A stretch of 21,633 nucleotides of DNA, taken from positions 1 to 21,633 of IMG/VR virus record IMGVR_UViG_3300010392_001181. One strand, 5' to 3'. The DNA is from a virus. Position 1 is the stretch's first letter; the number at the start of each line of letters is the position of its first letter. The position numbers and the translations under genes were made by a program. Below are positions 6,389-15,489 of this stretch, piece after piece. Below the pieces are notes generated by a model that was not told the DNA's origin, did not search any database, and was given only the letters and a program-made list of their open reading frames with translations.

Positions 6389-6747
6389 AAGTAAAAGAAC
6401 AACTATTAGCTCTTATTGTAGGTTTGCTAAACACACTCATAGTAGGATTGGGTGGTTATATTTATCTATCGGATAAAGCGTCTGCAAGTAATTTGCTCGT
6501 TACTGAAACTTTGGAAAGAAAAGAATCTGATTCTAGATTAATGTTAGAATTAGAAAAAAAAGTAAGTAAGGATGCATTTAACGAATTTAAAGTAGGTCAA
6601 CAAACCATAATAGACTATATAAACGAGTCCAATAAAAGGGATAAGATATATCAGGATATTATAAAAGACCTGACATTTATTGACTTAGATACAATTAATG
6701 TTGATTACCCTCGAATAAACTTTGCTTACGATGGAAATATACAATAA
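6385..6747 (+). CDS. Membrane-anchored coiled-coil protein
   Basis: A 120-aa protein starting at the ATG that overlaps the upstream TGA (ATGA). An in-frame Met 20 codons earlier is inside the neighbour and is disfavoured. Residues 4-28 form one hydrophobic helix (LLALIVGLLNTLIVGLGGYIYL). A charged, helical, coiled-coil-like stretch follows (ETLERKESDSRLMLELEKKV) and extends to about residue 95. This single-span topology with a long helical tail is common in phage lysis cassettes (spanin-like or holin-accessory) and in minor membrane proteins. The next gene begins 17 nt before its stop. Function is not identifiable from sequence alone. Confidence 0.65.
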   Translation: MKVKEQLLALIVGLLNTLIVGLGGYIYLSDKASASNLLVTETLERKESDSRLMLELEKKVSKDAFNEFKVGQQTIIDYINESNKRDKIYQDIIKDLTFIDLDTINVDYPRINFAYDGNIQ

Positions 6748-7192
6748 ACGATTATCTCATACTAAAAATACAACTTTGGGTCAGATTAGTCTCTATGATT
6801 TTTCAACTCCGTTTGGTTTTATCATTGAGGATGAACCTAGAGTTGTTAAGGTGGGAAGTAAAACACGCATTCCGTCAGGCAGGTATAGACTAAAAATAAG
6901 AAAAGAAGATACTCCACTTACGGTTAAGCACAGGGAATCTAAGTGGTATAAAGGTTGGTTTGAATATCACATAGAGGTTTGTGGAATTCCAGATTTTACT
7001 GGAATATATTTTCACATGGTAAATACTCATGAACACACTTCAGGATGTCAAGGTGGAGCTAAGACTGTTAAAATACAAAACGGAGAATATGTTGCAGTTA
7101 ATTCTACGGAAATGATAAAAGAGTTTTATAACATAGTTTATCCTAAATTATTAAATGGAGAAGAAGTATTCTACACTATCATCGATGAATAA
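6731..7192 (+). CDS. DUF5675 family protein, candidate cell-wall enzyme
   Basis: A 153-aa protein starting at the ATG within the end of the upstream gene. The upstream TTG start is less likely because the ATG gives the family-like beginning MEIYNKRLSHTKNTTLGQIS. The N-terminal half has 'FIIEDEPR', then 'IPSGRYRLKIR', a segment shared by DUF5675 members, and the middle has 'IYFHMVNTHEHTSGCQGG'. In that family this is a His-containing strand followed by a Thr/Ser-Gly-Cys, an arrangement reminiscent of the His...Gly-Cys active site of L,D-transpeptidases. Whether it is catalytic is not established. Lying among membrane proteins, it could act on peptidoglycan in lysis or entry. Its last 8 nt overlap the next small frame. 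Confidence 0.7.
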   Translation: MEIYNKRLSHTKNTTLGQISLYDFSTPFGFIIEDEPRVVKVGSKTRIPSGRYRLKIRKEDTPLTVKHRESKWYKGWFEYHIEVCGIPDFTGIYFHMVNTHEHTSGCQGGAKTVKIQNGEYVAVNSTEMIKEFYNIVYPKLLNGEEVFYTIIDE

Positions 7193-9100: not shown

Positions 9101-9982
9101 ATGGCACACACTAAAAAAGTGGTAGCTGGTTTGAGTGGTTTATACTACTCTCCGATTGTTGGTACTGGATTGATTTCTAGTGCTGATTGGGAGGCTTTGG
9201 CTTTCAATTTGGAGGGAAGTTTCACGTTAACACAAGACGATACAGAGGTAACGGAAATTTACGTTGAAGAATCCGATGCTCCTATTCTTCAGGTGTTAAA
9301 AGCTGGAAAGAAAAGTTTCACCACATCTATACCTGACTTAGCATTTGAAGTTGCTGAAAGGCTTTTTGGAGCTACCAAGTCTACCGTCACCGTTGAAGGA
9401 ACATCTTTAACTAGAGTTTCTTTACCTGATAGCGCTGAGTACCTTTACGGCATGTTTAAAATGGTTCCAACACAAGGTGTTGAACAGTTTTATATAGCTA
9501 AAGGTCAGATTGACGCTAAAATAAATGGAACTTTAAGTAAAACAGAAACTCTGAATATCGACTTGACTGTTACAGCATTAGTTCCTGATTCTGGAGAAAA
9601 AGCATTTAGTTACGATATCGCAGACGGAACTAATCCGGGATATCTATTAGGTGATACTTTAGCTGCTACATGGTTAACTACATTAGCTGCTGCTGGTAAT
9701 ACTTGTGGATTGACTCTAACCGTTGACGGAGGTGCTGCTCAAGATGTAAATACTCTTGACTTTACTGCTGCTACCGAGGAGTCTGATGTTGTGGACGTGT
9801 TGAATGCTGCATTTACTGGAGCTACATGGAGTTTGGATGTTGACGAGTATAGAATTAGAGTAACTTCTGATACTACTGGTTCTGGAAGTACTATTGTACT
9901 TGCGGATGGATCAACAGGAACGGCAATACGTGGAGCAACCATGCTGAACACTTCTGCATCTACACCAGTTGCAGGATCGTAA
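9101..9982 (+). CDS. Major tail tube protein with C-terminal beta domain
   Basis: A 293-aa protein that would assemble the tail tube. The N-terminal 180 residues read like a tube domain: a short N-arm with GLSGLYYSPI, then 'FTLTQDDTEVTEIYVEESDAPIL', 'SFTTSIPD', and a strand pair 'GQIDAKINGTLSKTETLNIDLTV'. From about residue 190, 'CGLTLTVDGGAAQDVNTLDFTAAT' is followed by 'VVDVLNAAF', 'YRIRVTSDTTGSGSTIVLAD' and a Gly-Thr-rich end. This resembles a beta domain also seen in DUF3383-type tail proteins of contractile phages, where it decorates the tube or sheath. Length is normal for a tube protein plus such an extra domain. It has its own promoter and a strong terminator behind it, in keeping with high expression. 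No sheath gene is visible, so a non-contractile tail is likely. Confidence 0.75.
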   Translation: MAHTKKVVAGLSGLYYSPIVGTGLISSADWEALAFNLEGSFTLTQDDTEVTEIYVEESDAPILQVLKAGKKSFTTSIPDLAFEVAERLFGATKSTVTVEGTSLTRVSLPDSAEYLYGMFKMVPTQGVEQFYIAKGQIDAKINGTLSKTETLNIDLTVTALVPDSGEKAFSYDIADGTNPGYLLGDTLAATWLTTLAAAGNTCGLTLTVDGGAAQDVNTLDFTAATEESDVVDVLNAAFTGATWSLDVDEYRIRVTSDTTGSGSTIVLADGSTGTAIRGATMLNTSASTPVAGS

Positions 9983-10032: not shown

Positions 10033-10066
10033 AAACCTCTTGCAGAAATGTAAGAGGTTTTTGTTT
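10033..10066 (+). terminator. Intrinsic terminator after the major tail gene
   Basis: Bases 10033-10044 (AAACCTCTTGCA) pair with 10049-10060 (TGTAAGAGGTTT). This gives a 12-bp stem with one G-U pair and a GAAA tetraloop, followed by a T-rich run (TTTTGTTTT). It is the strongest hairpin in the window and lies about 50 nt after the tail tube stop. Confidence 0.85.
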
Positions 10067-10094: not shown

Positions 10095-10116
10095 ATATAG
10101 ATTTTAACTATCTTTG
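10095..10116 (+). promoter_or_regulatory. Promoter for the chaperone and tape measure genes
   Basis: Bases 10109-10116 (TATCTTTG) match TAnnTTTG exactly. ATATAGATTTT at 10095-10105 repeats the element before the 9044 promoter. The box ends 5 nt before the ATG at 10122, so the transcript would be leaderless or nearly so. It follows the terminator at 10033-10066 and restarts transcription. Confidence 0.6.
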
Positions 10117-10121
10117 TACTC

Positions 10122-10667
10122 ATGAGTAAGGAAAAAGAAAAAAATAACGAACCTTCACCATCTGCTCAATTAGAGCAACTTAGGATAAGTCAAAGCGGAG
10201 TATCCGTGGTTGATTTGGGCGATAGGAAAGTAAAATTAAGACCTATCACGAGTGCTGTTAGCGATAGGATGAGTGGATATCTAGTTAGACAGGTTGATCT
10301 ATCTACTTCTGAAACTCCAGAGCTTATAGCTAAACAAAAACCTAACTTAAAGCTTCAATGTAAGGCTGTTGCATTAGCTATTCTAAACGACAATAGAATG
10401 CGTGGTTTTTTTGGATGGTTTAAGGTTAATTTTTTACATTGGATATATTGGAGAAAAATATTTTGGACGTACACCTCTGGCGATATATTTAAAGTATTAA
10501 CGAGCTTGGTGGAAAAACTGAATCTGGTTTTTTTTTATCAGAATATCGCCTTGACAAAAGGGATGAACAGTCTGGAGAGGAAGAAGACGAAGGAGGAAGT
10601 AAGGTTATCTCAAGCAGAACAGGAATTGGTGAAAAAGCCGGATTCCTTAAGGAACACGGATGGATAA
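10122..10667 (+). CDS. Tail assembly chaperone, unshifted form (gpG-like)
   Basis: A 181-aa protein read without a frameshift. The N-terminal tail (MSKEKEKNNEPSPSAQLEQL) is charged. The core (residues about 30-125) has 'VVDLGDRKVKLRPITSAVSDRMSGYL', a Lys/Leu helical part, and a 'KVLTSLVEKLNLVFFYQNIALTKGMNSL' helix, much like the N-domain of siphovirus tail chaperones, which bind tape measure protein before tube polymerisation. It lies between tube and tape measure genes, the invariant place for these chaperones. The frame stays open to 10667, but a second frame continues the protein after a slippery T9A at 10528-10536, so this is the short, abundant form. A promoter box ends 5 nt before its ATG. 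Confidence 0.7.
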   Translation: MSKEKEKNNEPSPSAQLEQLRISQSGVSVVDLGDRKVKLRPITSAVSDRMSGYLVRQVDLSTSETPELIAKQKPNLKLQCKAVALAILNDNRMRGFFGWFKVNFLHWIYWRKIFWTYTSGDIFKVLTSLVEKLNLVFFYQNIALTKGMNSLERKKTKEEVRLSQAEQELVKKPDSLRNTDG

Positions 10668-10840
10668 GTGAGTTTGAATACGATTGGCACCTATCTGTAG
10701 AGAAGAAAATGATAATGCTTATGGATGCTCCTAGAGTAGAATATGATAAAAAAAGAAAAAACAATGACAGTTCTAGTAAAATTGACGAAGAAGTTATAGA
10801 GGTTCCAGAAGGAGGAAAGCTGTCTGACTTTTTAATGTAA
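10122..10840 (+). CDS. Tail assembly chaperone, -1 frameshift form (gpGT-like)
   Basis: Reading to TTT 10533-10535 and slipping back one base gives LSEYRLDKRDEQSGEEEDEGG... in the -1 frame. It runs through 'GEKAGFLKEHGWISEFEYDW' and ends in EVPEGGKLSDFLM at TAA 10838-10840, 11 nt before the tape measure gene. The fused product is 239 aa: 138 from frame 0 and 101 after the shift. Without the frameshift the stretch 10668-10851 would be a non-coding gap, although it encodes a sensible acidic-then-helical extension like the T domain of gpGT chaperones, which recruits tube subunits. Slippery sequence and stem-loop are described separately. The mechanism, ribosomal or a 9-T polymerase slip, cannot be settled from sequence. 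Confidence 0.75.
10528..10564 (+). promoter_or_regulatory. -1 frameshift signal (T9 slippery run and stem-loop)
   Basis: Nine T residues at 10528-10536 include T-TTT-TTT in frame (10529-10535), allowing tandem -1 slippage with full re-pairing. After a 9-nt spacer, bases 10545-10552 pair with 10558-10564 (7 pairs, one bulged G, GACAA loop), the spacing expected for a frameshift stimulator. The frame after the slip continues for 101 codons. Confidence 0.7.
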
Positions 10841-10851
10841 AATAAATAATC

Positions 10852-13800
10852 ATGCCTGAAGTAAAATATGAATTCATAGCTGTAGATAAAAATTTACAAA
10901 AGACTATTGAGAATATTGATAAGAGTCTTATCAGTATGGATCAAAACATTATGGATGTTGGTGCTAATTTGAATAAATCATTCAAAAAGGGAGCTTCTGG
11001 ACAGCAGCAATTCCAAAATAATACAGTAAAAACAAATCAGGTACTGTCTCAACAATTAGGAATAGTTTCTCAATTATCAAACCAACTAGGAACCCTCTTT
11101 TCCATCTACGCTGCCGAAAGATTTGTACGTCAAATGATAAAAGTTCGAGGAGAGTTTGAGCTTCAGTCTGTAGCTTTGTCTGCTATGGTTCAAGATACCA
11201 AACTAGCCGAACAACTTTTCACTCAGGTTCAATCTTTAGCGCTAAAATCTCCATTTAAAATATTAGAACTAAACTCTTACCTTAAACAGCTAAAAGCTTT
11301 TAGGATTGAGAATGAAGATTTAATACCTACACTAAAACAGCTTGGTGATGTTTCTGCTGGCTTGGGCGTAGATATGAGTAGGCTTATTTTAGCTTACGGT
11401 CAAGTTAGAGCTGCTTCGGTTTTACGTGGACAAGAGCTTAGGCAATTTACTGAGGCTGGAATTCCGCTAGTAGATGCTCTTGCTGAAAAATTTACAGAAC
11501 TAAAAGGTAGAGTTGTGGATACTGCCGAAGTTTTTGATTTGATATCTAAAAGACAGGTTTCTTTTGAGCTTATTCGAGATATTTTTGGAGAAATGACAGA
11601 AGAGGGGGGGATATTTTTTGATCAACAAAGAAAACAAGCTGAAACTCTTTCTGGACAGGTTTCTATACTTGCTGACGCTTGGGATAAGATGCTAAATCAG
11701 TTAGGAAAATCGAATGAAGGTGGAATTAAAGGAGCCATAGGTATAGCTAGAGATCTTATCGATAATTACGAAGAAGTTTTGAGGATAATTAAGGTTTTAA
11801 TAACTACCTATGGAGCTTACAAAGCTGCTGTAATAGCTGTAAATATATCAGAACAAGTAAGACTTTATGGGTCGTTAACCAAAGTTATAAGGGGAGCCGC
11901 ATCCGCTCAGAGACTATTAAATACAGCTATGGTTAAAAATCCAATCACAGCAGTAATAGCAGGATTGACAGCTTTAGTTGCTCTTTATGTAAGTAGTGCT
12001 AGAAAACAAAAAGAAGAAGCTCAAGCTACAAGAGATAGTATAGCTCCGTTGGTTGATAAATCAAATGCAATTAGATCTCTTAAAAACGAATACGCAGACG
12101 TAAATACCAGCACGGAAAGAAGAGTTGAGTTGTTGGCTGAAATAAATAATATCACTCCTATAACTGTAAAAGGATACGAAAGTGAGGAGGATGCTATAAG
12201 AGGGGTTACTGAAGCTTTGGAGGGTCAGGAACAGGTTTTAAGAAAACTAGCCCTACTTAAGTTAAGACCAGTTTCTCAATCTTTTGAAGACGCTAGAACT
12301 AATTATGACGATATACTTTCCGACTTTAATGCATTTAAAGATAAGTACGAATCTATTTATGCTAGTGTTGTCAGTAATATAGAATCTCAATCAGAAAATT
12401 TAGAACAAGCTGATAAGGATTTTTTTCAAAATATAATAGACTCAAATAGATCTGATACTGAAAAATTAGTAGAACTAAATAGATTTATTGTTAGAAAATG
12501 GGCAGAAGTGGATGATGACGTAAACACTATTCTTCCTGAATTTAGTAGAAATTACTTAAAAGCGTTTGAAATATTAAAACAACCATTTGATGAATTGGGA
12601 GGTCTTTTTAAGGGAACATCCCTAGCTCAATATGTAAAAAATAACGCTGGATTTGATGAAGCTATAGATTTAGTTAAAAAAGCAGAATCAGATTTAAGAA
12701 AGGAAATATTAAAATTCGCAGAAACTCTTCCAGAAGGTGAGATTAGATTTGATTTTATTTTAGCTGCTTTAGATCAGTATGGATTATTAGAAGAAAAGAC
12801 AAAAGAAGTGGCTGATATTATTCCTAAAGAATGGAAGGCTATGACTTTAGCTATAAAAGGAATAGATTTTAAACTACCCGGCATTTCTGAGTTTGCGCCA
12901 AAAGAGTCAAGTGAGTATATATCATACATAAAAGAAATTCAAGATCAGTGGAAATCAGCAAAAGATGATTTAGAACTTTTTAAAAGTGTTAATGTAGATA
13001 TTACAGATAAACTCATAGAGACAGGCGATTTAAGAACCGAAGAAGAGGAGAAAGTTTATCAATCCCTGCTGGATCAAAAGAAAGAATTACAAGCTCAAGA
13101 GACGGCTTTAAGGAAAATTTTAGTATTCTGGAAAGCTCTGCCAAAAACCGTTGGAGCAGGGGCTAAAGATTTAGTAAAACCCCTAAAAAACCAACTTAAA
13201 ATAATAAAAGATATTAGAAACACGTATCTCCAATTGGAAGATATAACTAAAGGGACTTCTCTTTCTGAGGTTGGTTTTGAAGAATTCAGAGATGAATTGC
13301 AGGGTGTTTTTGGCGATATTGGTTTAGATGAAAAACTACTAAAAGAGGCTTTTGAGTCATACACAGATAAAGATTTTAGAAAATATCTTGAAAAACTAAA
13401 AAAAGCTGCGGAGGATTTGGGAACTAAATCTGGAGATGCTTTTGCTGAATCTTTAGCCTTACAGATAGCCAATATAGGAAAAAAAGACCTTTTAGACGAC
13501 ACTAAACTTAAAGCAGAAATAGAAAAACTGCGCAATGAGCTTTTAGGAACATTCGCCCCATTTGGAGAAGGAGTGGTGTTTGATATATCCCTAGTAACTA
13601 CAAAAGCTGAGTCTGATGTTCAGGAGGTTATAGATAAATATGAAAAAGCACTACAAGGAGCCAATGAAGAGCAAGCTAAAGCTTTAGATGAGCTTAAAGA
13701 AAGAGAGATCAGGGGAATACGAGAGGCTTCAAAAGAGAGGGTAAAAAACTTGGTTTCGAAATCTATAGAAGAGGATTTGGGGCCATTGGATCAGTTTTAT

Positions 13801-15489
13801 AAAAACGTAAACGAAGCTACTCTAAGGCAGCTTAAGGAAGTTGACAAAGAAATCGATAAAATTACCAGTAAAAAAATAAAACCTATAGAGTTGGTTTCTC
13901 CTGAACTTCCTGAAGACTTAGGTTTAGTTGGAGAGCAGATTGAGGATGTATTGACATTATTGGAAGATGGAAACTTTAGTGATGAATTTCTAAAAACAAC
14001 ATATGGTCTTACTGAAGATCAGCTTGCTGTTCTTAAAGAAATAGTATCTAAAACGGATAGTTGGAATTCTGAGCTAGAAAAAGTAAAATTTACTTGGAAA
14101 GAATTATTCTCTGATGAGCAAATTCAAAGAACATTAAAGGGTGTATCTGAAATTTCAGACTCTGTAGGAAATTTGGGTGGCTCTTTGTCTGAGATGGCGA
14201 AAGATTTAGATATGCCAGAATTAGAAAAGTTCGCAGAGAGGTTGATTTTTGCTTCAGAGCAGATAAGCGAATTAGCTAAAGGTGCCGCAAGCTTGGCTAC
14301 TGAAGATATTGGAGGAGCCATTGCTAGTGGAGTTAATCTAATATCTAACGAAATAAAGGATATCTCTTCTCAAATAGCAGCCAATAGGCAAGCTTCCGAA
14401 GATTGGAATGATATAATAAAAGAGGTTGCTCAAAGTTATTCTGTTATTAGTATAGAGTCTAAATTAGCGGCAGAACAAAATAAGGATATTTTTGACCTAG
14501 ACGATCCTTTAAAATCGGCAAATAAAGCTTTTGATGCTTATAAAGAAGCTCAGAACAGACTAAGAGAGTTGGGCAAAGAGCTTAATAGTGGTCAAATACA
14601 AACCGGAGTTAAGGAGGTTAGAAACCTTGAGTTTTCTATATTCGGAGGCATAGCCAGTGTCGCTAAAACAGTATTAACTCCAGAGTTGGAGCCTGTTTTT
14701 TCTAGCCTTGCAGATAAATTTGGACAAATATTCGACCCAGAAACTTTTGAAATAAATCCAGCAATATTAGCAGAATACAGTAAGCTCGATGACGAAACGA
14801 AAAAGCTTGTAGATAATTGGCAAGAGATTGCCGTCTTGATGGAGGAGTCTGAAGAACAGATATTAGAGGTTCTTGAAAACTTAACAGGAACATTAGGAAC
14901 CAGCTTGTCTGACTCCATAGTGGATGCTTTTATCAACGGAACAGATGCTGCCGAAGCTTGGGGAGAAAGCGTAGAAGAGGTTATAGAAAGCATTCTGGAA
15001 AAATCACTTCAGGCTCAGTTTTTAAAGCCAGTATTTGACAAGTTGGTTGAAGATTTTGAGAGTCAGGTTAAAAAAGGCGCTACGGCTGAAGATATAGCTA
15101 CAGATGTGGCTAAAGTTTTTGATAGTGGAGAGATAGAGGATGCGATTTCAATATATACAGATGGATTGTCGGCTTTTCAGGATGAATTTAAAAAATTTGG
15201 TTTAAATTTGTGGGAGGAAACAATAGAAGATGCTAAAGGATTGAGTCGTGGTATTCAAGGAATAACTGAAGATACCGCAAATATAATAGCAGCTTACTTA
15301 AATACAATAAGATACCAAGTAATTCTAAATACTGGATATATGGAGCAAATATTAGCATCAATGAGAACTTCGCAAACCATGGCATCTCAGCAGTTAGCTA
15401 GATTAGCCTCTATAGACTCGAATACACTTAGGGTTGCTGATTTATTGGATTCGGTTGCTAATGGAACAAAATCATTAAAGGTTGCTTAA
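10852..15489 (+). CDS. Tape measure protein
   Basis: A 1545-aa protein, the largest in the window, that would set tail length and help DNA delivery. Residues about 95-215 match the N-terminal tape measure domain, with FELQSVALSAMVQDTKLAEQL, 'LALKSPFKILELNSYLKQLKAF', 'LKQLGDVSAGLGVDMSRLIL' and 'VRAASVLRGQELRQFTEAGI' in pattern. Two hydrophobic stretches follow at about 313-330 (KVLITTYGAYKAAVIAV) and 365-380 (ITAVIAGLTALVALYV). The rest is a long Lys/Glu/Leu-rich helical, coiled-coil region, with a more mixed C-terminal end. No lysozyme or peptidase domain is visible. With about 1.5 A per residue known for such proteins, it would fit a tail of up to roughly 230 nm, an upper bound. It follows the chaperone genes by 11 nt. 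Confidence 0.9.
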   Translation: MPEVKYEFIAVDKNLQKTIENIDKSLISMDQNIMDVGANLNKSFKKGASGQQQFQNNTVKTNQVLSQQLGIVSQLSNQLGTLFSIYAAERFVRQMIKVRGEFELQSVALSAMVQDTKLAEQLFTQVQSLALKSPFKILELNSYLKQLKAFRIENEDLIPTLKQLGDVSAGLGVDMSRLILAYGQVRAASVLRGQELRQFTEAGIPLVDALAEKFTELKGRVVDTAEVFDLISKRQVSFELIRDIFGEMTEEGGIFFDQQRKQAETLSGQVSILADAWDKMLNQLGKSNEGGIKGAIGIARDLIDNYEEVLRIIKVLITTYGAYKAAVIAVNISEQVRLYGSLTKVIRGAASAQRLLNTAMVKNPITAVIAGLTALVALYVSSARKQKEEAQATRDSIAPLVDKSNAIRSLKNEYADVNTSTERRVELLAEINNITPITVKGYESEEDAIRGVTEALEGQEQVLRKLALLKLRPVSQSFEDARTNYDDILSDFNAFKDKYESIYASVVSNIESQSENLEQADKDFFQNIIDSNRSDTEKLVELNRFIVRKWAEVDDDVNTILPEFSRNYLKAFEILKQPFDELGGLFKGTSLAQYVKNNAGFDEAIDLVKKAESDLRKEILKFAETLPEGEIRFDFILAALDQYGLLEEKTKEVADIIPKEWKAMTLAIKGIDFKLPGISEFAPKESSEYISYIKEIQDQWKSAKDDLELFKSVNVDITDKLIETGDLRTEEEEKVYQSLLDQKKELQAQETALRKILVFWKALPKTVGAGAKDLVKPLKNQLKIIKDIRNTYLQLEDITKGTSLSEVGFEEFRDELQGVFGDIGLDEKLLKEAFESYTDKDFRKYLEKLKKAAEDLGTKSGDAFAESLALQIANIGKKDLLDDTKLKAEIEKLRNELLGTFAPFGEGVVFDISLVTTKAESDVQEVIDKYEKALQGANEEQAKALDELKEREIRGIREASKERVKNLVSKSIEEDLGPLDQFYKNVNEATLRQLKEVDKEIDKITSKKIKPIELVSPELPEDLGLVGEQIEDVLTLLEDGNFSDEFLKTTYGLTEDQLAVLKEIVSKTDSWNSELEKVKFTWKELFSDEQIQRTLKGVSEISDSVGNLGGSLSEMAKDLDMPELEKFAERLIFASEQISELAKGAASLATEDIGGAIASGVNLISNEIKDISSQIAANRQASEDWNDIIKEVAQSYSVISIESKLAAEQNKDIFDLDDPLKSANKAFDAYKEAQNRLRELGKELNSGQIQTGVKEVRNLEFSIFGGIASVAKTVLTPELEPVFSSLADKFGQIFDPETFEINPAILAEYSKLDDETKKLVDNWQEIAVLMEESEEQILEVLENLTGTLGTSLSDSIVDAFINGTDAAEAWGESVEEVIESILEKSLQAQFLKPVFDKLVEDFESQVKKGATAEDIATDVAKVFDSGEIEDAISIYTDGLSAFQDEFKKFGLNLWEETIEDAKGLSRGIQGITEDTANIIAAYLNTIRYQVILNTGYMEQILASMRTSQTMASQQLARLASIDSNTLRVADLLDSVANGTKSLKVA

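Follow-up and report, generated by a model that had tools for sequence, protein, structure and literature searches.

How one gene can yield two proteins across a run of nine Ts, and which machine does the slipping, are the questions raised by a short reading frame directly upstream of the tape measure gene in IMG/VR record IMGVR_UViG_3300010392_001181, a record coextensive with the 21.6-kb stretch of DNA analyzed here (the window, 21,633 nucleotides). Recoding of tail assembly chaperones is well known, and all known cases have been described as ribosomal (PMC5009743). The G/GT pair is a textbook instance of a ribosomal frameshift serving phage assembly. The initial annotation read the locus as a programmed −1 ribosomal frameshift aided by a stem-loop.

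Two overlapping reading frames and a T9 run

Rereading of the window bore out the claimed layout, with the frame-0 chaperone extending from an ATG at 10122 to a stop at 10665-10667, the −1 frame open over 10493-10840 with its stop at 10838-10840, and 101 codons added past the run (Table 1). The run comprises exactly nine Ts, a count that depends on contig assembly, and is the only A/T run of at least nine in the window. It contains the proposed in-frame heptamer T_TTT_TTT, of the X_XXY_YYZ form expected of a ribosomal frameshift site, with frame 0 reading G GTT TTT TTT TAT and the −1 frame past the run reading TTA TCA GAA TAT (LSEYRLDKRDEQ...). The long form would have 138 + 101 = 239 residues against 181 in the short form, the first 138 being common to both. 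A frame-0-only annotation does leave a gap before the tape-measure ATG at 10852, although it amounts to 184 nt and not the 180 nt first given.

Table 1. Coordinates of the chaperone locus and its neighbors in the window
Feature	Position	Strand	Evidence
Upstream gene, tail-tube-like by position	9101..9982	+	phrog_6767 (unknown function); weak, sub-threshold match to DUF3383
Tail assembly chaperone gene in frame 0, encoding the short, G-like form (181 aa)	10122..10667	+	ORF; matched by the relatives' profile (E 3.2e-23); modeled fold resembling N15 GT
T9 run, slip site	10528..10536	+	Direct reading and run survey
In-frame heptamer T_TTT_TTT	10529..10535	+	Direct reading
Extension in the −1 frame (T-like domain; 101 codons plus stop)	10535..10840	+	Open frame; profile of relatives' extensions E 2.4e-29; conserved SRT..G motif
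Predicted hairpin past the slip site, putative role	10546..10566	+	Folding energy of the region −9.4 kcal/mol (z −1.05)
Tape measure protein gene, immediately following	10852..15489	+	phrog_9959 E 1.4e-90; Pfam TMP_3 E 9e-18

The upstream tail-tube-like protein found no matches in phages by tblastn. Between its gene and the chaperone lies a terminator-like hairpin with a T tail (10033-10060), and TATCTTTG occurs at 10109-10116, 5 nt ahead of the chaperone ATG, which we take to fit the TAnnTTTG promoter element of Bacteroidota; the chaperone and tape measure genes possibly form a separate, nearly leaderless transcript. A DUF5675 protein is encoded at 6722-7192, between the head and the tail genes (Pfam E 1.6e-17).

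A likely tail assembly chaperone by position and predicted fold

The structure predicted for residues 1-138, a confident model (pLDDT 88.9), consists of a helix, two strands and four helices. Among solved structures this fold had no match, and the chaperone part had no sequence match among Pfam families. In a comparison with predicted viral structures, the GT tail assembly protein of phage N15 came up as similar (probability 0.99, TM 0.53, but E 0.13); several annotated tail assembly chaperones match more weakly, and the best-scoring matches are unnamed phage proteins. From the modeled fold and the position before the tape measure gene, a gpG-like role for the first half is likely. In the extension, modeled with low confidence (pLDDT 67.6), an SRT..G motif and an aspartate are conserved, and 6 of 29 extensions match phrog_11996, a family of unknown function.

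The −1 extension is conserved among relatives

Searching with the chaperone by tblastn matched only the Parabacteroides phages PF672P1 and PF672P2, at 25% identity; both also have T9, followed by a −1 extension that starts SEYGI where the window reads LSEYR. Scans of IMG/VR and bacterial genomes with the chaperone alone returned no matches, and a long blastn query nothing beyond one 79-nt match. Relatives were instead reached via the tape measure gene, giving some hundreds of loci from phage records, IMG/VR and bacterial genomes, the named ones mostly belonging to Bacteroidota phages or prophages (Bacteroides, Parabacteroides, Dysgonomonas, Prevotella, Paludibacter). Profiles of each chaperone half, built from 35 relatives with the window left out, matched the frame-0 and −1 ORFs of the window (E values in Table 1) and no other of its 367 six-frame segments. 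Of 215 unique loci, 180 had both halves recognized: 179 carry the second half in the −1 frame, L019 alone has it in frame with the first, and no locus has it in +1. The comparison of this junction in related phages, which had been proposed as a check, thus finds the −1 extension real and conserved rather than absent from relatives, and also favors the initial annotation on the count of the T run.

Together, the position before the tape measure and the conserved −1 extension that follows on the frame-0 gene, along with a modeled fold resembling N15 GT, strongly support the proposed gpG/gpGT-like identity; it is very likely that this is a recoded tail chaperone, of which a Bacteroidota phage would make two versions from one gene.

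Three other explanations were weighed against recoding. That one frame is simply right, the other reflecting gene decay or a mistake in sequencing or assembly, might be suspected of a single virus record for which no close relatives were found, but the same arrangement recurs, with slip sites of several kinds, both in finished genomes of phages and in prophage contigs of bacteria, and we give this scarcely any credence. Long homopolymers are mutable, so a run whose length varies in the population could toggle the long form by DNA-level phase variation; against this, no run-bearing relative was found in the fused (on) state and the sole fusion lacks a run, which makes such toggling extremely improbable here. 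The mutability of long homopolymers has been discussed (PMC1088944). With all but one of the 180 loci in the −1 arrangement, error, decay and phase variation are ruled out as general explanations. Finally, the −1 ORF could be a separate protein with an internal start, as GenBank records of relatives imply by annotating it as a separate small gene. The conserved portion of the extension, however, begins as early as the slip site, ahead of the starts given in those records, and at the run it occupies the −1 frame; one relative also has both halves in one ORF. An independent protein is very unlikely. All three explanations were rejected on these grounds.

In L019 (MT835773.1, 1524-2348), both halves lie in a single ORF with no slip run, a natural fusion in which the long form may be sufficient. 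Riemerella phage RAP44 (L009) and CRP5 (L020) have opposite-strand genes annotated before the tape measure, and no adjoining chaperone was recognized there. OQ791282.1, a record named Shigella phage Henu10, gave a tape measure match with identity and score equal to those of Riemerella phages; its host label is possibly wrong. The annotated records that were inspected either split the long chaperone or lack it, and it deserves annotation.

Run length is conserved while register changes

Pure homopolymers account for 79 of the 155 canonical heptamer sites (A9, 31; A10, 14; T9, 27; T8, 3; T7, 4), a count that includes six doubtful loci (L244, L248, L254, L279, L281 and L283) excluded from the later structure and tree tests. 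The other sites are mostly GGGTTTT with or without extension, AAATTTT or TTTTTTC, with CCCTTTT also present. The survey demands an in-frame heptamer, a rule that favors long runs; the control was drawn under it too. By lineage (clusters at 45% identity, which are not fully independent), 28 of 31 homopolymer lineages have a run of at least nine (9-10 nt), whereas of 86 homopolymer heptamers lying in frame at other places in these loci, 68 are in runs of seven, 18 in runs of eight and none in a longer run. Across 851 kb of other coding sequence there were 25 A8 and 2 T8, and no A/T run of at least nine. Six further A-type loci, found later by profile, have A9 or A10 as well.

The register, meanwhile, changes within lineages: one has A9 in all three codon registers, and another has T9 in two. 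Elsewhere, 0 of 160 KKK and 0 of 10 FFF tripeptides are built from AAA or TTT only. Because registers vary and such tripeptides are otherwise not encoded this way, run length is not set by one codon pattern. In many bacterial genomes, selection against A/T runs becomes evident once they reach nine (PMC1088944), and a run of nine kept across homologues is the sign given in the literature for purposeful transcriptional slippage (PMC1088944, PMC5009743).

Six loci keep the −1 arrangement without a canonical heptamer (L005, 2540-2636; L008, 1247-1382; L018, 1030-1270; L204, 2567-2642; L235, 1313-1406; L247, 2478-2592). They share only T_TTT, as in GCG GAT TTT ATA, which suggests single-tRNA slippage.

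Downstream RNA structure tends to accompany short sites

The stem-loop of the initial annotation can be recovered as a predicted 7-bp inner stem with one bulge at 10546-10566, 10 nt past the heptamer, accompanied by a 4-bp outer stem; any stimulatory role in the frameshift is putative. Tested against dinucleotide shuffles, the folding energy downstream of the window's slip site does not stand out clearly from chance (z −1.05 over 65 nt, and −1.8, −0.25 and −1.4 in 40-, 80- and 110-nt windows). In long-run lineages (n = 27) the mean z is −0.25, −0.13 and −0.07 in 60-, 80- and 110-nt windows, equal to that of random coding windows (−0.28), so a stem-loop as conserved stimulator is unsupported in this class. 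Short-site lineages (n = 11), in contrast, average −1.58, −1.14 and −1.16 in the same windows (p 0.023, 0.003, 0.002), with structure unevenly spread among them, from −3.95 in the extreme GGGTTTTT lineage to −0.4 in the G5T4 lineage; no difference between long and short sites appeared in 40-nt windows. Long-run lineages thus have no structure above control while their short-site relatives tend to have it; together with the conserved run length, this is the pattern to be expected of transcriptional slippage, other relatives using ribosomal frameshifting.

Slip sites change over the tree

A tree of 38 fused proteins places every A9/A10 member in a single supported group (100/99). On this tree the A9/A10 class is of single origin, its run length kept through deep divergence. 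The slip site of these relatives (e.g., L010 at about 1684-1693, L035 and L259) lies some codons upstream of the T9 position relative to the conserved extension and has therefore moved during evolution. T9 and short sites, on the other hand, interchange with 7 to 9 changes. This interchange keeps a ribosomal reading alive for T9, as T_TTT_TTT can be viewed as a case of the form X_XXT_TTT.

Which machine slips

Recoding into the −1 frame, as initially proposed, stands; the ribosomal mechanism attached to it is not established, since the conserved run length fits RNA polymerase slippage at least as well. Purely ribosomal programmed frameshifting would have tandem tRNA-Phe slip on U_UUU_UUU, perhaps aided by the hairpin at 10546-10566. 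It draws on the in-frame heptamer, on clear X_XXY_YYZ sites at the same junction in relatives (GGGTTTT, AAATTTT, CCCTTTT), on the local hairpin in the 40-nt window and on the precedent of the known tail chaperones. Seven Ts are enough for a heptamer, yet T7 and T8 are rare and T9 is the rule, and long-run lineages lack downstream structure; we hold this alternative to be a serious one, of rather less than even probability.

RNA polymerase slippage is favored for T9 because the 9-10 nt length is conserved while register changes, whereas a heptamer needs only seven nucleotides. From these sequence patterns we lean, at slightly better than even odds, toward transcriptional slippage over purely ribosomal frameshifting. 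The caution reflects the valid ribosomal heptamer held by T9, the interchange of T9 with short ribosomal-type sites, a structure contrast that is missing in 40-nt windows and uneven across lineages, the one origin of the A9/A10 class, and the chance that ribosomal slippage might likewise gain from longer runs. We found no documented T9 slippage by a Bacteroidota RNA polymerase.

Under transcriptional slippage, RNA polymerase would insert one extra U (or omit two) at T9 in part of the mRNAs, and normal translation of these altered-length messages would account for most entry into the −1 frame, with ribosomal −1 slippage on the same U_UUU_UUU as a possible addition. In relatives with short sites (GGGTTTTT, AAATTTT, CCCTTTT, TTTTTTC, T7-T8), ribosomal frameshifting would lead into the same frame. 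If lambda G/GT is a guide, binding of the tape measure protein would fall to the common 138-residue part, and recruitment of tail tube subunits to the −1 domain. It is slightly more likely than not that T9 or A9/A10 chaperones arise by RNA polymerase slippage and those of sister phages by the ribosome, two machines interchangeable in making the same two proteins. If this is true for many Bacteroidota phages, the G/GT ratio would be fixed at the level of the mRNA pool, and a single gene family would offer a natural series of switches between slippage and ribosomal frameshifting. In the papers open to search, we came across no account of tail chaperone slippage, nor of any recoding of this gene in Bacteroidota phages.

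Comparison with known systems

The lambda gpG/gpGT frameshift and its relatives were described by Xu, Hendrix and Duda in 2004, as cited in PMC8008677, and are reviewed in PMC5009743. The present locus shares with lambda a gene before the tape measure, short and −1 extended forms with a common N-terminal part, a possibly similar predicted fold (that of N15 GT) and, in several relatives, heptamers such as GGGTTTT. It differs in having T9 in place of GGGAAAG, in the conservation of a nine-nucleotide run, in the lack of a convincing stem-loop and of a Pfam sequence match, and possibly in the machine that slips.

In dnaX and IS elements, either mechanism can operate within one gene family (PMC5009743, PMC1088944). 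Like Thermus dnaX (A9) and IS transposases (PMC1088944, PMC5009743), the chaperones have an A/T nine-run of conserved length in a coding region, followed by a conserved out-of-frame extension. Those are cellular or transposon genes, unlike the phage tail chaperone considered here, for which slippage is proposed from sequence; for dnaX the likeness goes further, as other bacteria use ribosomal frameshifting in the same gene.
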